This document shows positions 7,353-16,431 of a stretch of DNA of 64,000 nt, piece by piece. Each line of letters opens with the position of its first letter. Within the stretch, counting starts at the first letter, position 1. The notes under the pieces are model-generated. The model did no database searches, was not told the DNA's origin, and saw nothing but the letters and a program-made list of their open reading frames with translations. The stretch comes from Sphingosinicella sp. CPCC 101087. GTDB taxonomy: Bacteria; Pseudomonadota; Alphaproteobacteria; Sphingomonadales; Sphingomonadaceae. The position numbers and the translations under genes are program-made. The DNA lies in NCBI RefSeq assembly GCF_004151485.1, contig NZ_SBFF01000007.1, forward strand, positions 62,001-126,000, given 5' to 3'.

Positions 7353-8032
7353 TCCGCACGGTTGCCGAGACCGGCTCGACCAACGACGACCTCGCCGCCC
7401 TGGCGCGCGAAGGCGTGGCGGAAGGGACCTGGCTCCGGGCGGATCGGCAAACCGGGGGCAAGGGCCGGCAGGGCAGGGCCTGGATGTCCCCGCCCGGCAA
7501 CCTCTACGCCAGCACGCTTGTGCGGCTACAGCCCGGGGACCCACCGGCCGCGACGCTTGCCTTGGCCGCCGCGATCGCGCTGCACGAAGTCGCGTCCTTC
7601 CATGCCGGCGGGCTGAGCCTCAAGTGGCCGAACGATCTGCTTGCGAGCGGCGCGAAGGTGGCCGGCATCCTGCTCGAGCGGGAAGGCGAGGCAGTGGTCA
7701 TCGGGTTCGGCGTGAACCTCGCCGCCCATCCCGATCTTCCCGACCGCCCGTCCACCAGCCTCGCGGCGCTTGCCGGCACGGTACCCGATCCGGCCGGCTT
7801 CCTGGAAATGCTGGCTGAGTCCTTCGCCCGCTGGCTGATGCGGTGGCGGCAGGACGGTGTGGCGGCGATCCGCCGGCGCTGGCTCGAAGCGGCGCATCCG
7901 ATCGGAACCGCGCTCGCCACGTCCGAAGGGGCCGGCTTGTTCGAAGGCCTTGACGAAGCGGGCGCCCTCAGGCTGCGTCTCGCCGACGGGAGCATCCGCA
8001 CCATCCACGCGGGCGACGTCTTCCTGATCTGA
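7349..8032 (+). CDS. birA: Biotin--[acetyl-CoA-carboxylase] ligase, non-canonical start
   Basis: The enzyme activates biotin to biotinyl-AMP and attaches it to the BCCP subunit of acetyl-CoA carboxylase. Seen here are the N-terminal ETGSTNDD motif (7367-7390), the biotinyl-AMP loop GGKGRQGR (7454-7477), LKWPNDLL with the catalytic-region Lys, GFGVNL, and a small C-terminal domain ending at TGA 8032. There is no N-terminal DNA-binding domain, so this is a monofunctional ligase of about 227 residues. The first standard start codon in frame is GTG 7415, which would remove the conserved ETGSTN motif. No ATG, GTG or TTG occurs in frame between 6958 and 7415. CTG 7349, overlapping the nuoN stop as CTGA, is the best position for the true start, probably by translational coupling. 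Confidence 0.9.
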   Translation: MIRTVAETGSTNDDLAALAREGVAEGTWLRADRQTGGKGRQGRAWMSPPGNLYASTLVRLQPGDPPAATLALAAAIALHEVASFHAGGLSLKWPNDLLASGAKVAGILLEREGEAVVIGFGVNLAAHPDLPDRPSTSLAALAGTVPDPAGFLEMLAESFARWLMRWRQDGVAAIRRRWLEAAHPIGTALATSEGAGLFEGLDEAGALRLRLADGSIRTIHAGDVFLI

Positions 8033-8109
8033 GCCTTCGCCTTGTCCGCCCGGGGGGTGCAATCGGCAGGTTCGCTTGATAACCAGCAATGTTTGAAGGG
8101 AGAGCGAGG

Positions 8110-8829
8110 ATGCGCCTGCCGATGGTGGCTGTCTTGGCCTCCGGCCTTCTGGCCGGATGCGCCGGCAACCTGGCCGACTATGTCGGGCCGCGCACCGACA
8201 TCGTCTCGCCGCAGCTTGCGCGCTACGGTTTCGCTCCCGAGGAGATGCAGTGCGTCTCGCAACGCCTCGCGGCCGGGCTGACGCCGCTTCAGCTGCGCCA
8301 GCTCGTCCGCTTTGCCGGTGCCGTCAACCAGGGCTATTACGACCCGGCGCGGCTCACGCCTCGCGATCTCGCTCATGTCGCCTCCACGATGGAGGATCCT
8401 CAGATACGCCTCGAACTCGACCGGGCCACCCAGAGCTGCGGGGCCGGCATCGTGACCGTCGAGGCCCCGCCGCCGACCTCGGCGCCTGCCGGGCCGAGCG
8501 CAGCGCCCCGGCCGCCCACCTGGCTCAATCTCGGCGCCGCGCCGACCGGCCAGTCGATCGCCGTCGACGCCGCCACCCTGGTTCAGGAGGGGAATGTGCG
8601 CCGTGCCTGGGTGCGGCTCACCAATCCCGACGAGACCGCGCCGACCGATGTGTCCTACCTCCTGGTGATGGACTGTGCCGGCCGCACGTTGGAGGCGCTG
8701 GCTCACCGCCGTCAGGACGCCGCCGGTGCCGTCACCGAATATCACGAATATGCGCGCGACGCCGAAGGACCGGTCCCGATCGAAGGCGGAACGGTGATGG
8801 AGATCGCCTATCTGGCGTTATGCACCTGA
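8110..8829 (+). CDS. Predicted lipoprotein of unknown function
   Basis: A 239-residue protein with a clear lipoprotein signal: a short basic-hydrophobic start (MRLPMVAVLASG) followed by the lipobox LLAGC, with the lipidated Cys at residue 17. ATG 8110 is preceded by GGGAGAGCGAGG. An upstream in-frame ATG (8089) would place seven charged or polar residues before the signal and is less likely. The body has a helical N-terminal half (about 35-115), a Pro/Ala-rich linker (about 118-140) and a beta-rich C-terminal half (about 142-239). I do not recognise the family. It follows birA on the same strand by 77 nt and may be co-transcribed or independent. Confidence 0.82.
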   Translation: MRLPMVAVLASGLLAGCAGNLADYVGPRTDIVSPQLARYGFAPEEMQCVSQRLAAGLTPLQLRQLVRFAGAVNQGYYDPARLTPRDLAHVASTMEDPQIRLELDRATQSCGAGIVTVEAPPPTSAPAGPSAAPRPPTWLNLGAAPTGQSIAVDAATLVQEGNVRRAWVRLTNPDETAPTDVSYLLVMDCAGRTLEALAHRRQDAAGAVTEYHEYARDAEGPVPIEGGTVMEIAYLALCT

Positions 8830-8930
8830 TCCGAGCGAAGGCTGGAGCCCAAGCCGACTCGTCGCCTGCCGAGACCGAACCGATGCGCCAAGCCTGATCT
8901 ACGCACCTCACGAAATGCCGCCACGTCCGC

Positions 8931-8958
8931 TTGGATGCCGGCCTTCGTCGGCATGACG
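8931..8958. repeat. REP-like palindrome, copy 3 (inverted orientation)
   Basis: ATGCCGGC (8935-8942), loop CTTC, GTCGGCAT (8947-8954), then GACGA. On the minus strand this reads CGTCATGCCGAC...GCCGGCATCCAAG, matching the layout of copy 2. One arm position is a wobble or mismatch. It lies between the convergent lipoprotein gene and the minus-strand coiled-coil gene. Confidence 0.65.
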
Positions 8959-8979
8959 AAGATTGGAAGGCGGCGGGGC

Positions 8980-11265
8980 CTAGCGCCGCAGCCGATCGAT
9001 CGCCTGGGCAAGGGCAACGTAGAGCTTGCCCATGTCGGAGGAGAGGAGCGTGACACCGAGCGTCGCGCCGTCGCGTTCGGCGAGGACGCGCCGAAGCATC
9101 GCCTCGAAATCGTGGACGTAGCGATTCACCTGCTCGCGGAAGTCCGTCTCTTCCTCGTAGTGGCGCTGGATCTCACGCGCTTCGCCCGAATCGAGCAGGC
9201 GAACCGCGCGACGGGTGAAGACGCCGCGATCACCCTTCAGGTAAGCGGCCCAGGCGCTGTCCGCGACTTCGTTGGAGAGGATCTTGCTGACGTCGATCGC
9301 GGTCGAGTTGAGCGCCTCGATCAGCAGCGAAACGCGGCGCGTCAGATTCTCGGCGGCATTCTCCTCACGCAACGCCTGGTCCTCGGCAATTCGATCCTCG
9401 ATCGCGACGGCGGTCTCGCTCATCACCAATAGCTGCCGGGTCAGCCGCTCGCTCGCCTGCCGGGCGACGGCCATCGCTCGCTGCGACGCAGCCGCGAGCT
9501 CGGCGAGCTGATCCTCGACCGGCTCGGTCACGGCGCCGACGACGGCCTTGCGACTCGCCTCGGCGAGCTTCGCGGCGCTTTCGGGAATGGCCGCGGCAAT
9601 GGCCTCGCGAGCGTGGACGGCGGCCTGCTGCGCCGCCTCGCGCACGCGCACCAGCGACTCGATGAGCTGCGGTCCGGTCTCCTGGGCGAGCCGCGCCGCG
9701 GATCCATCCGTCGCCTCGACGGTTGCGCCGAGCGCCCGCAGCCGATCTTCCGCCTGTGCCGTGCCTTCACGTACCTGCTCGAGCAGCGCATCCAGCGACG
9801 CTCGCTGGCGGACCACGCTCTTCTCGCTTTCCGACAGCGACTCGGCCGCCATGGCCGCCGCCGCCTGTATGGCTTCGACCGATGGGACCGCCGCGAGGGC
9901 CGCGGCACCAGTCTGTCCCGCCCGAGCCTCGACATCGGCCAGCGCGCTCGGCAGCTGTTCGCGCAGCTGCGCGGTGATCTCGGTCAGGGTCGCCGCCATC
10001 TGATGGGCGCGATCGATCAGATCGCCCGAAGCGGATTCGCCTTTGGCGACCTCGGCGTGGAGCGCCTGGGCCACCCCTTTCAGCGCCTCCATCGACTGCG
10101 ACAGGCGGGCATTGTGCGTGTCGCCATGCTCGCCCAGCATCGCAATCTGTCCGTCGATCTCGGCCAGGCGCGACGAAAGGCCGGTGACGAGAGCCTGTGT
10201 GGCCGCTTCCTGGGCGGCGAGCTGGCCGGCCAACGTCTCCAGATGGGCGCCGACCTGTTCGAGTCGCTCGGACAGGCGGCGAGTCGCCTCGGCGCCGGCA
10301 TGCTCGAAGGCCGCGCGGCTCTGTTCGACCATGGCCAGCATCGTTCGGCCCTGTTCCTCGATACCGGCCCGGGCATGATCGACCGAATCGGAAGCGCGGG
10401 TCATCGCGCCGTCCACCGCGGCGTTCATCTGTACCGCGGCCTGATCGATCCGCTCGGCGGCGGCGCCGGTGCTGCTTTCGATCCTGGCGATCTGCGCGCC
10501 GAGGCGCTGCGCGGCGCCCCCGAGCGTCTCGTCGGCGTCGCGACCGCGCGCCGAAAGCGCCGCCAGATGGGCCTCCAGGGCAGCGGCCTGCTCGTGCGCG
10601 CTGAGGCCGGCCGTCCGCAGCGCGTCGGCGGCGGCGCGGGCCTGGGCCTCGGCCTGCGGCAAGTCGCTCATCAGCGCGCCGATATCGACGCGCGCCGTGG
10701 CCGCGGCATTGTCCAACGCCTGCGCCTTGCGATCGAGTTCGGCCGTCTCTCGCGCCAGGTAATGGGTCACTCGGCCGAGCCGGTCTGACGCTTCGTCGCC
10801 GAGCGACATCAGGCGCGCCGCTTCCTCGCTCAAGGCGGCGCGATTCTCCTGAAGCCGGCCCGCGACGATGCCGAGGACGCTCTCCAGCGCCTGGCTCTCG
10901 CGCCGCATCTCCTGCACGGCAAGGGTGAAGCGCTCCGTCTCTCGGCGGGAGCTGCGACCGAAGAGGAGCCAGGCCGAAGCGAGCAGGATCAGCGGGACGC
11001 TGATCGTCGTTACCCACCCGGTCCAGGCGGCGAGGCTCGGCACCGGCCAGCTCTGGCCGACGGCGAGGCCGGCGACGACGAGCCAGCCGATCGCGAGCAA
11101 GGCCAGGGATACGGCAAGGGCGCGCCGCCCCCCAGGGACCGACTCGTCCCTCTCGGAAGGTTCGACAACCGGCGACTCGGCTTCAGGAAGGGCGAACGCC
11201 TGCTCGCCTTCATATTCGGTGTCGCCCTGCGGCAGCGCTTCGGCCCGCTCGGCCCCCATGCTCAT
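8980..11265 (-). CDS. Two-TM, long coiled-coil membrane protein (TipN-like topology)
   Basis: A 761-residue protein. An acidic N-terminal tail of about 48 residues is followed by two hydrophobic segments (about 49-70 and 86-105). Then comes a very long Ala/Glu/Gln/Arg-rich coiled coil (about 110-640) full of A-x-x-L and heptad-like patterns. A more globular conserved-looking C-terminal segment (about 645-761) contains ILSNEVADSAWAAYLKGDRG and a repeated-charge helix ending in IDRLRR. No enzymatic motif is seen. The topology resembles polar scaffold proteins such as Caulobacter TipN, but that is a comparison of layout, not a demonstrated homology. It is divergent from the Hpt-like gene, sharing a 69-bp intergenic region with a TTAAC inverted repeat. 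A structural or positioning role at the membrane is inferred. Confidence 0.8.
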   Translation of the reverse strand: MSMGAERAEALPQGDTEYEGEQAFALPEAESPVVEPSERDESVPGGRRALAVSLALLAIGWLVVAGLAVGQSWPVPSLAAWTGWVTTISVPLILLASAWLLFGRSSRRETERFTLAVQEMRRESQALESVLGIVAGRLQENRAALSEEAARLMSLGDEASDRLGRVTHYLARETAELDRKAQALDNAAATARVDIGALMSDLPQAEAQARAAADALRTAGLSAHEQAAALEAHLAALSARGRDADETLGGAAQRLGAQIARIESSTGAAAERIDQAAVQMNAAVDGAMTRASDSVDHARAGIEEQGRTMLAMVEQSRAAFEHAGAEATRRLSERLEQVGAHLETLAGQLAAQEAATQALVTGLSSRLAEIDGQIAMLGEHGDTHNARLSQSMEALKGVAQALHAEVAKGESASGDLIDRAHQMAATLTEITAQLREQLPSALADVEARAGQTGAAALAAVPSVEAIQAAAAMAAESLSESEKSVVRQRASLDALLEQVREGTAQAEDRLRALGATVEATDGSAARLAQETGPQLIESLVRVREAAQQAAVHAREAIAAAIPESAAKLAEASRKAVVGAVTEPVEDQLAELAAASQRAMAVARQASERLTRQLLVMSETAVAIEDRIAEDQALREENAAENLTRRVSLLIEALNSTAIDVSKILSNEVADSAWAAYLKGDRGVFTRRAVRLLDSGEAREIQRHYEEETDFREQVNRYVHDFEAMLRRVLAERDGATLGVTLLSSDMGKLYVALAQAIDRLRR

Positions 11266-11306
11266 GACCGGACTCTATCACTTTGGGCCGGGGATGAAAC
11301 GGTCCC

Positions 11307-11329
11307 TTAACACGGTTCGCCGTAGTTAA
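11307..11329. promoter_or_regulatory. Inverted repeat with TTAAC/GTTAA arms and UUCG-loop core
   Basis: TTAAC (11307-11311), ACGG, loop TTCG, CCGT, A, GTTAA (11325-11329). The centre is a 4-bp stem with a stable UUCG-type tetraloop, and the outer arms contain two TTAA half-sites 15 nt apart. It sits in the 69-bp space between two divergent starts (11265 minus and 11335 plus), so it could act as a shared operator. The spacing differs from the CtrA consensus (N7), so CtrA binding is uncertain. Confidence 0.45.
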
Positions 11330-11334
11330 ATGTC

Positions 11335-11637
11335 ATGGCATATGATCCGGGAGCTTTGAACGCGTCGCTTGCCGCCGCCGTCGGCAGCGACAGCGACCTC
11401 GTGGCCGAGCTTCGCACCGCCTTCATCGAAAGCGCCGGCCGCCAGCTCGACCTGATGGGCCGGGCCCGTTGCGACGCGAACTGGGTGATCGCCGCCTCCC
11501 GCCTCAAGAGCCTCGCCGCCAGCTTTGGCGCGGCCGGTCTCGGCAGCCTGTCCGACGAAGCGCTCGAAGGGGCGCCGGGCGATCCGGTCGTGCTGCGCAA
11601 GATCGCTGCCGCCATCGACGATTTCGCCAAGGCGTAG
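11335..11637 (+). CDS. Degenerate Hpt-like (histidine phosphotransfer) domain protein
   Basis: A 100-residue all-helical protein whose centre (WVIAASRLKSLAASFGA, about 50-66) aligns by eye with the Hpt signature AHxLKGxAxxxGA. At the position of the phosphorylated His there is Ser55, and the glycine after Lys58 is Ser59, so it cannot serve as a normal phosphorelay intermediate. The flanking helices (LVAELRTAFIESAGRQLDLM and DEALEGAPGDPVVLRKIAAAI) fit a four-helix Hpt bundle. ATG 11335 has no obvious Shine-Dalgarno and lies just after the TTAAC inverted repeat. Neighbours are a divergent coiled-coil scaffold and, downstream, a DUF2336 protein and a His-less kinase. A protein-binding role in a pseudo-phosphorelay is inferred. 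Confidence 0.8.
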   Translation: MAYDPGALNASLAAAVGSDSDLVAELRTAFIESAGRQLDLMGRARCDANWVIAASRLKSLAASFGAAGLGSLSDEALEGAPGDPVVLRKIAAAIDDFAKA

Positions 11638-11730
11638 GCGCCGCTCGAAACTTAGTCCCGGCTGCACGTCCACGCTGTCTTTGCATCCGCCCCAGGTCCG
11701 CTTAGTCTCCCGCGCCTGCGGAGGGATGAT

Positions 11731-12915
11731 TTGGCACTGACGGCCCTGATTGCCGCCTATCACGATTCGGCCGAGCCGGGTGCTTTGCGCTCGACCTTGC
11801 CGCTGGCGGGCCGAACCGCGCTCGAGCGCCAGGTGCGGCTTGCCCTCGGCGCGGGCGCGGCAAGCATAGTCGTTCTGGTCGAGCGGATGCCGCCGGCGCT
11901 GACCGCCGCGATCGATCGGCTTCGGCGTGAGCGCGTGTCTGTGCATGTCGCCCGCAGCGCCGAGGAAGCTGCCGAGGCCGTTCCTCCGGATGATCGTTTG
12001 CTGTTGATCGCCGACGGCGCGATCGTCGAGCCTTCGCAACTCGAGCGTCTTGCCCGAGCCGACGGGCCGCTGGTTCTCACCGTTCCCGACGCTCCGTTCG
12101 GCGAGCTTTACGAGCGAATCGACGCGGCCTCCCGCTGGGCCGGGGTCGCAGCCGTCGACGGGGCGGTACTGCGTGAAACCGCGGCGATGCTTCAGGACTG
12201 GGACCTGCAATCCACCTTGCTCAGGCGGACTTTGCAAGCCGGTGCTCGCGCTCTGCCGGCAGAGGGAGCGGTGGCAATCCTCGACAGCGCGGTGGACCTC
12301 GCCTCCCTCGAGCGGCAGATATTGACCAGCGCGGCCGAAACCCGCGGCGGTTGGGCTGCGCGCTTGTTGTCGCCGCTGGAGCGCGCAGCCACCCACGCCC
12401 TGATGACCAGCGCGATCGGTCCGCGCGCGGCGGGCACGGCGGCGGTCGTGCTCACGGCGCTCGCAGCTGCCGCCTTCTTCTACGGCTGGCTGTGGGCCGG
12501 CCTGATCGCTCTGCTGCTTGCGACGCCGCTCGACGGAATCGCGGCGCGGCTGGCACGGCTCAGGATGCAGGACGATATCGGCCGAAGCTGGTGGTGCTAC
12601 CTTCTCCCGGCCATGGCCGGAACGGCGCTCGTGGCGCTCGCTTATGCGCTCATGCCGGCGCACGGCTGGGGCATGCTGCTCCTCGCGCTGACGACTATCG
12701 CCTTCCTTTTCGCTTTCGGCGTCGAGGCGGAGGGGCGGACGATCAGGGGAGCCCTGTTCCTCGCGGAACGCAAGGGCATGGCTTGGCTGATGCTGCCCTT
12801 CGCCTTGTTCGATGCCTGGTCTGCGGGCCTAGGGCTCTTGTTCACCTATGCCGCCGGCTCGTTCTTCTGGGCGCAGCACCAGGCGCATGCCGAAATGCCG
12901 GCGGCGCAGGATTAA
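11731..12915 (+). CDS. Nucleotidyltransferase-like / CDP-alcohol phosphatidyltransferase-like fusion, active-site residues missing
   Basis: A 394-residue protein starting at TTG 11731, with GGAGGGA just upstream (11720-11726). Residues 1-195 look like a sugar-nucleotide-transferase-type Rossmann domain (LTALIAAY, LPLAGRTALERQVRLAL, then LLLIADGAIVE in place of the metal-binding Asp region). Residues 205-390 are a membrane domain of about six helices with a CDP-alcohol phosphatidyltransferase-like segment PLDGIAARLARL at about 266-277. The usual motif D-x2-DG-x2-AR-x8-9-G-x3-D-x3-D retains only the central D268-G269...A272-R273. The first Asp is Thr265, and the last two Asp positions are Trp288 and Leu292. 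It may therefore bind but not catalyse, or be a divergent family. Function unknown. Confidence 0.75.
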   Translation: MALTALIAAYHDSAEPGALRSTLPLAGRTALERQVRLALGAGAASIVVLVERMPPALTAAIDRLRRERVSVHVARSAEEAAEAVPPDDRLLLIADGAIVEPSQLERLARADGPLVLTVPDAPFGELYERIDAASRWAGVAAVDGAVLRETAAMLQDWDLQSTLLRRTLQAGARALPAEGAVAILDSAVDLASLERQILTSAAETRGGWAARLLSPLERAATHALMTSAIGPRAAGTAAVVLTALAAAAFFYGWLWAGLIALLLATPLDGIAARLARLRMQDDIGRSWWCYLLPAMAGTALVALAYALMPAHGWGMLLLALTTIAFLFAFGVEAEGRTIRGALFLAERKGMAWLMLPFALFDAWSAGLGLLFTYAAGSFFWAQHQAHAEMPAAQD

Positions 12916-12927
12916 AGCCGGCTTAAC
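12912..12927 (+). promoter_or_regulatory. CtrA box, perfect TTAA-N7-TTAAC
   Basis: TTAA (12912-12915), seven bases AGCCGGC, TTAAC (12923-12927). This matches the established alphaproteobacterial CtrA consensus exactly. It lies 37 bp upstream of the ATG of the DUF2336 gene, a promoter-like position, and overlaps the end of the preceding gene. Regulation by CtrA is inferred from the match alone. Confidence 0.65.
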
Positions 12928-12963
12928 CCTGCATCGAATAGGGCTCGCCGCTAGAGGGATTTG

Positions 12964-14061
12964 ATGGCCGAAGCGGAATCCAGCCGGCGGAACGGGAAAA
13001 GCGACGCTGCGCGGCTGCTGCTGGCAGCGGCGCGAGAGCGATTCGCCGTGGCTGCGACAGACCTTCTGCTGCCCGATCAGGCGCGGCTGACGGAATGGCA
13101 GCGAGTCACGGCGGGCGCCTTGCTCTCCCGCCTGGTTCATTCGATCGAAGACGACCTGCGTGCCCGCCTGGCAACGCGTTTCGAAGCCCATGAAGCTGTT
13201 CACGCCGCTTTATCGTCGGCGCGGGTGCCGATCGCCGTGCCGATTCTCGAGCGCGCTCAGGCGCTGCGCGATCCCGAGCTGACGACGATGCTGGTCAGAC
13301 GCGCCGAGGAGCATCGCTTCTGGAAGGCGCGGCCGCCGGAACAGGCCGAGGAGCTTCTCTTCCAGCTGGTTCGCGACGGCGACGAGGCGGTCGCCGCCGA
13401 TGCCATGGAGCTGGTGATCGCCCGCAGCCGTCGTTTCGACCGGTTCCAGGAGCCGACCATGGCGCGCGTCGAGCTGCCGGCCGAGTTGCAGCACCGCCTC
13501 GTCTGGATGGTGGCCGCCGCCCTTCGCCAATATATCGTCCAGCAGCATGGGATCGGTGCCGTCGACGGCCCGATAGAGGAGGCTGCGGGACCGATCATCG
13601 CTTCCTACGACGAAAGCGAGACTCTGGAATCCCTCGCCATGCGCCTCGCGCGACGTCTGCACCGCACTGGCCGCCTTGACGGCCCCATGCTGGCGCGGAC
13701 CATGGAAGAGGGCATGCTCCCCTTGTTCATCGCCGGCGTGGCGGTGCTGTGCGCCCTCGACCAGGCGGCCGCGTGGGAAGTTCTTTCCGATCCGGGCGGA
13801 CGCGGCCCCGCCATGCTGCTCCGGGCCGCCGGCGTCGATCGCGACGAAGCCGCCGCCATATTGCTCGCGTTGAACATGCGCGGCCCGCTCCTCTCCGGTA
13901 TTGAGGGCGACGCTGCCGCCGCCCAGCTCGAATTGTTCGACACCGTCGATCAGGCGTCGGCACGGGAGGTCCTTCGGTTGTGGCAGGCACACCCTGCCTA
14001 TCGCGCCAGCGTCGCCCGCCTTTCGACTCGCGCCCGCTCCGCCGCGGCGGAGGCGGCATGA
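12964..14061 (+). CDS. DUF2336 domain-containing protein
   Basis: A 365-residue, soluble, mostly helical protein. It resembles the alphaproteobacterial DUF2336 family (HEAT-like helical repeats), with segments such as LSSARVPIAVPILERAQALRD (about 79-99) and ILLALNMRGPLL (about 298-309). The function of the family is not established. ATG 12964 follows a TTG in frame (12961) and GAGGG at 12954-12958. A perfect CtrA box lies 37 bp upstream, suggesting cell-cycle control. The stop overlaps the start of the following kinase-like gene as ATGA, so the two products are probably made together and may work together. Confidence 0.85.
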   Translation: MAEAESSRRNGKSDAARLLLAAARERFAVAATDLLLPDQARLTEWQRVTAGALLSRLVHSIEDDLRARLATRFEAHEAVHAALSSARVPIAVPILERAQALRDPELTTMLVRRAEEHRFWKARPPEQAEELLFQLVRDGDEAVAADAMELVIARSRRFDRFQEPTMARVELPAELQHRLVWMVAAALRQYIVQQHGIGAVDGPIEEAAGPIIASYDESETLESLAMRLARRLHRTGRLDGPMLARTMEEGMLPLFIAGVAVLCALDQAAAWEVLSDPGGRGPAMLLRAAGVDRDEAAAILLALNMRGPLLSGIEGDAAAAQLELFDTVDQASAREVLRLWQAHPAYRASVARLSTRARSAAAEAA

Positions 14062-15440
14062 GCGCGTTGGCCGAACGCGAGCGGCCGGTCACCGGGCGCG
14101 TCGATGCCGCCGGTCGCCTGGTCGAGGCCGATCCGCCGCTCGCCGAGCTGAACGCCCGCGCCGGCGGAGGGGAGGGGGGGATGCTCTCGGTGCCCCAGAT
14201 CGCCGCGCTTGCCCGACTAGCGCGTCGTCTCGGAATCACCATCTCCCGCGCCGCCATCGCCGCCGACGGCGACCGCGACATCGACTTGTGGGTCCGCGCC
14301 GATCCGGCCGGCGAGGAAGTGGCGCTTTCCATCACCGGCTGGGCGGAGCGGCCGACCCGGAGCGTCGCGCCTTCGGCCCCTGCCGAGCGCGAATCCGATT
14401 TCCTGCGCGCTTCGGCCGACTGGACCTGGGAGTGCGACGATGCGCTTCGTCTCACCGCCCTTTCCGCTGCTGCCGCCGCCAGCCTGGGCCGCTCCCCATC
14501 AGAGCTGATAGGAAAGCCGCTCACCGGCTTTTTTCGCTTCCGGGAAGGGGAGAATGGTGCGCTTCCCATCCTTGCCGCCCTCGCCGAGCATCGCCGGTTC
14601 GGAGACCAGCTCGCGGAGCTGCGGGCGGGGCGCAAGGGCCGCTACATCCTCTCGGGCGTGCCGCTGATCGACGGCATGGGCCGCTTCGCCGGCTTTCGCG
14701 GCGCCGCGGTCAGCGCGCGGACCGGCGAAGCCGCGCCACCGGGTGCCGGCCCACCCGAGGGCCGCTCCGCATTCGGCGAGCGGCTCGATCAGGCATTGCG
14801 CGCGCCGCTTGCTTACATCGTCGACCATGCCGAGCGACTGCGCATGCAAGGTGAGGGGCCGCTGCGCCGGGACTATACGGGCTATGCCGGCGACATCGCC
14901 GCGGCCGGACGGCATCTGCTCTCGCTCGTCGACGATTTGGTGGACCTTCAGGCGATCGAGCGTCCGGATTTCGCGCCCGAGGCGGAAGCGGTCGATCTTG
15001 CCGATCTCGCGCGAAGGGCCGCCGGGCTGCTCGCCGTCCGGGCGTCGGATCGGGGTGTTCGGATCGACGGGCCGACCGACGAGGAATCGCTGCCCGCGAC
15101 CGGTGATTTCACCCGCGCCCTCCAGGTGCTCATGAACCTCATCACCAACGCCATCCGCTACTCGCCACCCGGCGGGCAGGTCTGGATACGGCTAGACCGC
15201 GAAGGCGATCTCGCCGCGGTGATCGTCGCCGACCAGGGCAAGGGCATCGCAGCCGAGGATCAGGGTCGCATCTTCGGCAAGTTCGAGCGGGTCGATCCGA
15301 GCGAACCTGGCGGAAGCGGCCTCGGCCTCTATATTGCGCGGCGCCTGGCCCGTGCGATGGGGGGTGACGTCTCGGTCGACAGCGCACCGGGCCGCGGCGC
15401 CCGCTTCACCTTCACCTTGCCTCTGAGGGAAACACCCTAA
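14058..15440 (+). CDS. PAS/HATPase sensor kinase-like protein lacking the phospho-acceptor His
   Basis: A 460-residue soluble protein. A variable N-terminal region (1-110) is followed by a PAS-like domain (about 111-222: FLRASADWTWECDDALRLTALS, then LGRSPSELIGKPL), a dimerisation/HisKA-like helix pair (about 238-303) and an intact HATPase_c domain (about 312-456). The ATPase has an N-box with N364, a G1 box DQGKG at 392-396 and a G2 box GGSGLGLYIA at 418-427. In the H-box the sequence is LDQALRAPL, so Gln245 stands where the autophosphorylated His of SHELRTPL should be. No receiver domain is present. It overlaps the DUF2336 gene by 4 nt. It is probably an allosteric pseudokinase, in the manner of DivL, which also lacks the His. 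That role is inference. Confidence 0.88.
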   Translation: MSALAERERPVTGRVDAAGRLVEADPPLAELNARAGGGEGGMLSVPQIAALARLARRLGITISRAAIAADGDRDIDLWVRADPAGEEVALSITGWAERPTRSVAPSAPAERESDFLRASADWTWECDDALRLTALSAAAAASLGRSPSELIGKPLTGFFRFREGENGALPILAALAEHRRFGDQLAELRAGRKGRYILSGVPLIDGMGRFAGFRGAAVSARTGEAAPPGAGPPEGRSAFGERLDQALRAPLAYIVDHAERLRMQGEGPLRRDYTGYAGDIAAAGRHLLSLVDDLVDLQAIERPDFAPEAEAVDLADLARRAAGLLAVRASDRGVRIDGPTDEESLPATGDFTRALQVLMNLITNAIRYSPPGGQVWIRLDREGDLAAVIVADQGKGIAAEDQGRIFGKFERVDPSEPGGSGLGLYIARRLARAMGGDVSVDSAPGRGARFTFTLPLRETP

Positions 15441-15528
15441 GCCGTTGTCGATACGGCCGCGCGGCTGCCTCGCTGGACAAGGCAAAGCGCCCGGTCCACT
15501 GTTCCGTCGTGGGAAGGAGCGCTCCGGA

Positions 15529-16431
15529 TTGATCGAGCTCGATGCGCGCGCTTTCGAGCATCTTTGCCGTACCGGTGTGGTGCGGACCCAGCTCGACACG
15601 CTCGATGAGCGGCGCCGGCGAAGCATCCGGCATTTCTGGTTTCATCTCGTCGGCAGCCTGGTTCTCGCCGCCGTCGTTCTGATCTCGCTCGCCGGCTATG
15701 GCTGGCTGATCTCCGGAATCATCCTCGCCGGTCTCGTCGTCATCGTCGGCCTCTTTTTCGCTTTTCGACCGCTCGGCGCGGTCAAGGCCGAGCTCAAGCA
15801 TCCGGTCCTCGAGACGCTCGCCGGCCAGAACGGAATGGAATATCTGCCCGACGGCTTCGATCCGCCGGTCTTTCCGGAGGCAAGCCAATCCCTGTTCGGC
15901 GGCATCACGAGCTACGGCTTCACCGACCTGTTCCACGGTACCGACAAGGACCGGAAGCGCTTCGCTTTTTATGAAGGGAAGCTGGTTCGCGGCTCGGGCA
16001 AGAATGCGAAGACCTTGTTCTCCGGCCAGTTCTACGCCTTCCAGCGCCGGTCGCCCGGAAATGGTGAGACCGCGATCGTTCCCGACAAAGGCCTCTTCAA
16101 CTTCAGCAAGCCGAGCGGCTTCCAGCGGATCGGATTCGACGGCGATCCTGCTTTCGAGAGCTGCTTCGAAGTCTACACGAACGAGCCCGCGGCGAGCCTG
16201 GTTCTGCTGGAGGCCGACGCCCGGCGCACGCTGCTCGACCTGCGCGCGGGAGGCAAGACATTCGTTTATGTCGGCCCGGAAGATGTCCTGGTCGGCATCT
16301 GGGGCAAGAACCGGTTCGAGCCTGGCAGCATGTTCAGTGCGCGTCCGGGCGAGCAGCGGGTCAAAGAGATGTTCGAGGAGGTTCGCGCGGCGCTGTCGGT
16401 GATTCGAACCCTCAAGGCGGCGCTGGACTGA
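15529..16431 (+). CDS. DUF3137 domain-containing membrane protein
   Basis: A 300-residue protein with two adjacent hydrophobic segments (about 40-62 and 66-84) after a short cytoplasmic N-terminus. The beta-rich soluble domain resembles DUF3137, with TDLFHGTDKDRKRFAFYEGKL and LFSGQFYAFQ as typical segments. TTG 15529 is chosen because GGAAGGAG lies at 15512-15519 and the protein then begins IELDARAFEHL. The frame is open back to a TTG at 15445, but that extension has no recognisable content. The function of the family is unknown. It follows the kinase-like gene on the same strand and precedes a sugar kinase. Confidence 0.8.
   Translation: MIELDARAFEHLCRTGVVRTQLDTLDERRRRSIRHFWFHLVGSLVLAAVVLISLAGYGWLISGIILAGLVVIVGLFFAFRPLGAVKAELKHPVLETLAGQNGMEYLPDGFDPPVFPEASQSLFGGITSYGFTDLFHGTDKDRKRFAFYEGKLVRGSGKNAKTLFSGQFYAFQRRSPGNGETAIVPDKGLFNFSKPSGFQRIGFDGDPAFESCFEVYTNEPAASLVLLEADARRTLLDLRAGGKTFVYVGPEDVLVGIWGKNRFEPGSMFSARPGEQRVKEMFEEVRAALSVIRTLKAALD

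Follow-up and report, generated by a model that had tools for sequence, protein, structure and literature searches.

The DNA considered here is a stretch of 64,000 nucleotides from Sphingosinicella sp. CPCC 101087 (contig NZ_SBFF01000007.1, positions 62,001 to 126,000), which is referred to as a whole as the window. It contains five open reading frames, all found where a preliminary description of the sequence had placed them, which encode a coiled-coil membrane protein (COIL), a divergently transcribed relative of the histidine phosphotransfer proteins (HPT), a relative of the CDP-alcohol phosphotransferases (CDP-like), a DUF2336 protein and a relative of the histidine kinases (HK), together with a predicted CtrA box (Table 1). 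The start of HPT lies about 70 bp from COIL on the opposite strand, and the HK and DUF2336 genes overlap by ATGA.

Table 1. Genes and predicted regulatory site of the locus, in window coordinates
Feature	Position	Strand	Description
COIL	8980-11265	-	Open reading frame of 761 amino acids; two N-terminal transmembrane segments, heptad-periodic helical body, C-terminal domain of about 125 amino acids
HPT	11335-11637	+	Protein of 100 amino acids with predicted Hpt fold; Ser at the position of the phospho-acceptor His; divergent from COIL
CDP-like	11731-12915	+	394 amino acids; predicted IPCT-DIPPS fold (nucleotidyltransferase and membrane CDP-alcohol phosphotransferase domains); catalytic motifs absent
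CtrA box (predicted), TTAA-N7-TTAAC, TTAAAGCCGGCTTAAC	12912-12927	+	Overlaps the CDP-like stop codon; just upstream of DUF2336
DUF2336	12961/12964-14061	+	Open frame from 12961, ATG at 12964; distant relative of SpbR
HK-like pseudokinase	14058-15440	+	Conserved N-terminal region, PAS, Gln for His in the H-box, intact ATP-binding boxes

The linkage of these genes was assessed within the genus and across the family. The HK protein was searched in 41 genomes (the window's own, 24 of the same genus and 16 of the same order), and gene order was compared in the regions of 20 same-genus genomes with a strong HK match. The order COIL, HPT, CDP-like, DUF2336, HK is present at 17 of these 20 loci, the exceptions being L041, which has DUF2336 and HK only, L053, which lies at a contig start, and L057, in which HPT was not detected. 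A single-sequence search with HPT in 298 Sphingomonadaceae genomes gave matches in 194 of them and in 66 of 96 genera. For closer comparison 120 loci, all picked by the presence of HPT, were assembled from the best 80 of the 186 loci that a search by HPT alignment gave (Sphingomonas, Sphingosinicella, Sphingobium, Blastomonas, Sphingorhabdus, Erythrobacter, Novosphingobium, Sphingopyxis and others) and from 40 regions each representing a different genus. All five genes occur at 97 of the 120 (93 of 114 when counted by distinct HPT protein, since six pairs of loci share one), COIL is divergent from HPT at 119, and DUF2336 alone is missing at six, some of the gaps being contig ends. The comparison of neighbourhoods that the preliminary description had proposed thus finds the five genes linked across the family. 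In Sphingomonas parapaucimobilis (NZ_CP155749.1) the genes are annotated as HAMP sensor histidine kinase, hypothetical, hypothetical, Hpt domain-containing and hypothetical, and both the Hpt (AALRLKGLAAS) and the kinase (LDRALRTPL) lack the His.

HPT matches the Pfam Hpt model (PF01627) weakly, below the cut-off (E 0.05). Its AlphaFold model (pLDDT 90) finds proteins named as Hpt at 18 of the first 19 ranks in the PDB, with E values of 0.09-0.37 and none at or below 0.001, the one remaining title being uninformative; the protein can be aligned with His-containing Hpts, and the model is consistent with the Hpt helical bundle. The acceptor His of the HxxKG motif, which had been reported missing from the window's protein, is missing from all 138 HPT rows of the family. 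In the 126 distinct rows its column holds Trp (41), Leu (25), Met (16), Ser (14), Gln (14) or other residues, while the surrounding face is mostly kept, with Lys at +3 in 106, Gly at +4 in 91 and Ala at +6 in 113. The H+4 Gly of Hpt proteins is discussed as an interaction residue in the abstract of PMC6341664.

The HK protein matches HATPase_c (PF02518) at 7e-31 and HisKA at 0.012, below the cut-off, and its H-box in the window reads RLDQALRAPL. None of 128 rows of the locus kinase has the H-box His; among the 121 distinct rows the acceptor position is occupied by Pro (65), Arg (20), Lys (11), Gln (10) or others, and the N, G1, F and G2 ATP boxes are highly conserved throughout, so that the earlier picture of a kinase-like protein with an intact ATPase and no H-box His extends to the whole sample. 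Three Sphingopyxis rows (L147, L152 and L170) were left out of this count, because the His kinase found there was rejected as the locus HK: it is another kinase, scoring 34-38 against at least 294 for the rest. At L147 (10483-12141) Sphingopyxis keeps COIL and HPT, but the kinase downstream is a different one with an intact His (IHELRSPLNAI).

The third protein with missing catalytic residues is CDP-like. The best PDB match of its AlphaFold model (pLDDT 88) is the IPCT-DIPPS enzyme 4MND (Foldseek 1.5e-12), to which it aligns over the whole two-domain fold (VIA Z 29.7, 363 residues, root-mean-square deviation 5.3). The CDP-alcohol phosphotransferase signature D..DG..AR.{8}G...D...D and the GxGxR motif of the N-terminal nucleotidyltransferase are each found in 0 of 111 family CDP-like proteins. 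A remnant of the former, DG..AR, which is present in the window, occurs in 7 of the 111, and GxGxR[LM] is matched in 6 of 20 same-genus rows, but in the C-terminal domain, outside the nucleotidyltransferase loop. The preliminary description of a CDP-alcohol-transferase-like fusion devoid of catalytic Asp residues was right at the level of the fold, and the role of an active lipid enzyme was rejected on the motifs despite that fold. Among relatives elsewhere in the class, L279, L280 and L281 carry both motifs and L282 carries the CDP-alcohol phosphotransferase signature; the first three are IPCT-DIPPS-like two-domain alphaproteobacterial proteins, motifs intact, and are possibly makers of inositol-type phosphodiesters. 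Because the losses of His and of these motifs are family-wide, the inactivity at the locus is not a matter of local gene decay, which was also rejected because, within the genus, none of the other four proteins is as conserved as the dead Hpt (median identity 78.6%, 17 loci).

The CtrA box, whose presence before DUF2336 had been noted earlier, is perfect in sequence and the sole match to its pattern in the window, where 0.01 would be expected; in the 4.7-Mb genome 10 oriented matches are spread over 7 places, compared with 3 matches for the reversed pattern. Over the 120 family loci (1.71 Mb) the form TTAAN7TTAA occurs at 21 sites, with 12 loci having a site in the gap between CDP-like and DUF2336 and 7 having one in the gap between COIL and HPT, related loci being included in these counts. 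When each of 40 genera is represented by one locus, every one of the 7 strict sites falls in these two promoter gaps, which make up 10.5 of 491.5 kb (2.1% of bases). The half-site TTAAC lies near the CDP-like stop in 72 of 98 loci, as against 1.5% of random windows, and a site with at most one mismatch is present at 19 of 19 same-genus loci, 15 of them as TTAG-N7-TTAA and two perfect, this being a looser form counted with no shuffle control. A CtrA-type box is, on the sequence evidence, conserved at the locus, which is predicted to belong to the CtrA regulon. Sphingomonas melonis can grow without CtrA, according to excerpts of PMC8116508.

COIL has hydrophobic segments at residues 51-69 and 85-103, and its body is strongly heptad-periodic (the power is 1273, that of shuffles 315, with 0 of 500 shuffles as high), as expected of the two-segment coiled-coil membrane protein that had been proposed to diverge from the Hpt-like gene. 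Its C-terminal domain is present in 101 of 289 genomes of the class (4 of these 101 being Sphingomonadaceae), in a single copy in 99, at the ends of long open reading frames; of 20 such homologues examined, 17 carry a pair of hydrophobic segments at the N-terminus and 3 a single one. Over this domain COIL is 35.6% identical to its homologue in Sinorhizobium meliloti, which in strain Ak57 (CP090106.1, from a plasmid collection) is a protein of 2,089 amino acids annotated as ‘kinesin’ and matching PF01442 at 257.8 bits. This homologue is likened to RgsE/GPR because its length and domains match those of RgsE, which is described in excerpts of PMC7327166 as a protein of 2,089 amino acids with apolipoprotein domains, two transmembrane helices and homology to GPR, located at the growing pole. 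GPR itself, in passages of PMC8262873, has two N-terminal transmembrane domains and forms a ring that polar growth requires. By its C-terminal domain and its predicted two-segment architecture, COIL is a relative of this rhizobial pole-growth protein.

The neighbourhoods of the COIL homologues indicate what the family's HPT may once have been. Forty class loci were read around homologues of the C-terminal domain, and at 9 of them, which come from four other families, a divergent Hpt gene with an intact His is found (two of three genomes in f12, three in f17, two in f128 and two in f130), at a distance of about 70-90 bp in f12 and of 0.8-1.2 kb, between open frames, in the other three. In S. 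meliloti Ak57 an ‘Hpt domain-containing protein’ (EAHRLKGAA) is divergent from the 2,089-residue COIL homologue at 617 bp, and Shinella sp. PSBB067 and Sinorhizobium sp. K101 have the same arrangement with a His-containing Hpt; two further Sinorhizobium matches to the COIL domain are present in the plasmid collection. Because His-containing Hpts stand beside COIL homologues outside the family, the COIL/Hpt pair would be old, and it is only in the Sphingomonadaceae, among the members compared here, that the aligned Hpt lacks its His. In the Rhizobiaceae, the loci L283 (2105-9360, S. meliloti), L285 and L286 have a His-containing Hpt divergent from rgsE/gpr-type genes. At L237 (2-7311), a His kinase of 781 amino acids with the Hpt-like segment AHAIKGAA is encoded directly upstream of a COIL homologue of 1,635 amino acids. 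A text search of the main text of two rgsE/gpr papers found neither ‘Hpt’ nor ‘phosphotransf’, and in the open-licence literature the closest result for a growth pole ring together with Hpt was RdsA, an orphan hybrid kinase that controls cell shape in Rhizobium etli and has, in the portion of PMC9022086 consulted, no Hpt nearby. RdsA and the Hpt beside rgsE/gpr-type genes might be partners.

The kinase of the other pair has His-bearing relatives as well. Sixteen same-order genomes belonging to other families were searched, and in all 16 the best match to the locus kinase keeps the His; 14 of these 16 kinase genes lie beside a DUF2336 gene, the other two being on contigs of 3.8 and 4.9 kb. The DUF2336 protein of the window matches PF10098 at 4e-31 with 108.7 bits, above the curated cut-off of 34.6. 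DUF2336 is multicopy in these same-order genomes (G025-G040), each of which has 4-9 matches; genomes of the window's genus have from none to two. The preliminary description had taken retention of the catalytic His in relatives as a point that would tell against its proposal. Inside the family none keep it; outside, Hpts next to COIL homologues keep it, as do kinases next to DUF2336, and this dates the loss and does not remove it.

The reading that we favour, to which we assign a little less than an even chance, is that the locus is a polarity or cell-cycle module of the Sphingomonadaceae in which an old COIL/Hpt pair and a DUF2336-kinase pair, both stripped of phosphotransfer, serve as a non-catalytic polar signalling platform. 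The ancestral alphaproteobacterial unit would have been a pole scaffold of the RgsE/GPR type with two transmembrane segments and a coiled coil, accompanied by a divergent Hpt. In the Sphingomonadaceae this Hpt would have lost its phospho-acceptor, a DUF2336-kinase operon would have joined the pair, its kinase losing the His too, and an IPCT-DIPPS-fold membrane protein would have lost both of its active sites. COIL, in the inner membrane, would then mark a pole or a site of growth, and the kept Lys/Gly/Ala face may allow the dead Hpt to dock, either on the kinase-like protein or on a receiver domain belonging to the CckA/DivK/CtrA network. The kinase-like protein itself may signal by an ATP-dependent change of shape, comparable to the action of DivL, a pseudokinase that switches CckA by binding (excerpts of PMC7200025). 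DUF2336 could tie the complex to the PopZ pole matrix, by analogy with SpbR, and CtrA would time the expression of the locus, so that signals would pass by binding, without phosphotransfer. SpbR binds PopZ, and PF10691, which we take to be the PopZ family, is found in 41 of 41 genomes and lies on the same contig as the locus in the window's genome. A paper on SpbR is cited in the consulted part of PMC12700997, while searches of the open-licence literature for DUF2336, and for SpbR with Caulobacter and PopZ, returned nothing, which is weak evidence of absence.

The preliminary description had likewise proposed a non-catalytic signalling complex. Linkage, family-wide inactivity, the conserved CtrA box and the kinship with RgsE/GPR support that proposal, and the His kept by relatives outside the family does not. 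Several observations weigh against the reading that we favour. There is no HPT match in 104 of the 298 family genomes in the single-sequence search, and COIL is present in 19 of 20 of these HPT-negative genomes that were tested, so that the dead relay appears dispensable; G022 and G023, incomplete genomes whose HPT status was not assessed, are both without COIL. The linkage is broken in some genomes, G009 having HPT and DUF2336-HK on separate contigs. A nearby Hpt gene was found at only 9 of the 40 class loci, and none in the stretch read at L239, an f12 genome, or at the GPR-sized L226 and L227. Six HPT rows have a His at +3 and one has it at +1, and a His in helix 2 of the DHp domain (AGRHLL), a possible acceptor, is present in 127 of 128 kinase rows. 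The match of DUF2336 to the SpbR model NF052659 (66.5 bits, 2e-18) falls well below the equivalog cut-off of 400. HPT matches are independent of matches to the flagellar gene FHIPEP in the 298 family genomes (134/60/72/32, odds ratio 0.99, p = 1), a result on which a main role as a flagellar accessory was also rejected. The polar location, the complex and the function of the locus products are what we infer from the observations above.

A first alternative, which is unlikely, is that the locus is a neighbourhood without a module, in which COIL/HPT and DUF2336/HK are independent transcription units and each dead protein has an unrelated task of its own. A CtrA box of its own precedes the DUF2336-HK operon, the two units are separated in G009, and outside the family the COIL/Hpt and DUF2336/HK pairs are mostly apart; moreover, RNase J, which at 16 or more of the 20 same-genus loci adjoins COIL on its other side, is found in another part of the window's genome. 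Set against this, the order of the five genes is kept across the family while the flanking genes change, HPT, DUF2336 and the locus HK are missing together from G008 and G019, two complete genomes of the same genus that keep COIL and PF10691, CtrA boxes are predicted at both units, and a DUF2336 gene is located less than 5 kb from the COIL homologue at 4 of the 40 class loci (L231, L234, L255 and L256).

It is improbable that phosphorelay persists in trans or at another residue, with the HK-like protein phosphorylating either its own helix-2 His or, within a mixed dimer, the His of a partner kinase, and with HPT acting as a decoy that blocks receivers. The conserved ATP boxes, the nearly invariant helix-2 His and the kept Hpt face are all as this explanation would have them. 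The column of the helix-2 His, however, is also His in 15 of the 17 same-order kinases that bear the acceptor His, so that no new acceptor is indicated, and because it is equally present in these relatives it is probably an ordinary residue. The acceptor position is mostly Pro, which would be expected to disturb the helix, and the residues after the His that serve the phosphatase activity of HisKA kinases are changed too. There is similarly little chance that the locus serves envelope growth and not signalling, with COIL organising a GPR-like growth zone and the dead IPCT-DIPPS-fold protein and its neighbours as structural or lipid-sensing parts, for although CDP-like has the fold of a lipid enzyme, two of the five proteins derive from phosphorelay parts and growth of the Rhizobiales type is not known in the Sphingomonadaceae.

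The flanks of the locus are more variable. The DUF3137 gene downstream (15445-16431) was rejected as a sixth member, since of 20 same-genus loci 5 have it, with one weak case among them. On the other side (positions 7415-8980), RNase J and DUF1467, which occupy the space between biotin ligase and COIL at 16 or more of the 20 same-genus loci (coaX at 15 or more), are missing from the window; RNase J is on contig C1 of the same genome, and an open reading frame of 246 amino acids (8089-8829) takes their place.

With its dead proteins conserved, the locus offers a test of whether a phosphorelay can become a circuit that works by binding alone. A wider proposal, more tentative and on balance doubtful, is that an Hpt and kinase segment on a widespread pole scaffold was turned, in one family, into a phosphorylation-free polarity circuit, and that the ancestral active Hpt with its RgsE/GPR scaffold forms a phosphorelay that feeds into polar growth in the Rhizobiales and other groups and has gone unrecognised. 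The His-containing Hpt beside rgsE/gpr-type genes in Sinorhizobium and Shinella would then be an overlooked partner gene, linking polar growth to phosphorelay.

The proteins of the locus can each be compared with a known system. CDP-like shares its entire two-domain fold with the IPCT-DIPPS enzyme but, in all 111 family members, neither of its motifs. The DUF2336 protein belongs to the same Pfam family as the SpbR of Caulobacter and matches the corresponding NCBIfam model, but its score is far under the SpbR cut-off. TipN, the Caulobacter polarity landmark, has two transmembrane segments and a long coiled coil, and its likeness to COIL is one of general description; in the open-licence literature, searches for TipN with Hpt or with sphingomonads returned only Vibrio and unrelated work, and searches for Sphingomonas pseudokinase histidine kinases nothing but Hyphomonas work. 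DivL of the CtrA pathway resembles the HK-like protein in having an ATP-binding domain, no acceptor His and a CtrA context; it has Tyr at the acceptor position, whereas the HK-like protein is the product of a different gene, beside DUF2336, with Pro, Arg, Lys, Gln and others there. Known pseudokinases such as DivL occur singly, while here the relatives of a kinase, an Hpt and a lipid enzyme are all dead beside an RgsE/GPR-type scaffold. COIL, likened to RgsE of Sinorhizobium meliloti and GPR of Agrobacterium tumefaciens by sequence and architecture only, differs from them in length (761 against about 2,100 amino acids), in having no PF01442 match at E of 1 or less in a domain search and in the dead state of the adjoining Hpt in the Sphingomonadaceae; it has in common with them two N-terminal transmembrane segments, a long helical body, a homologous C-terminal domain and a divergent Hpt gene at its side.

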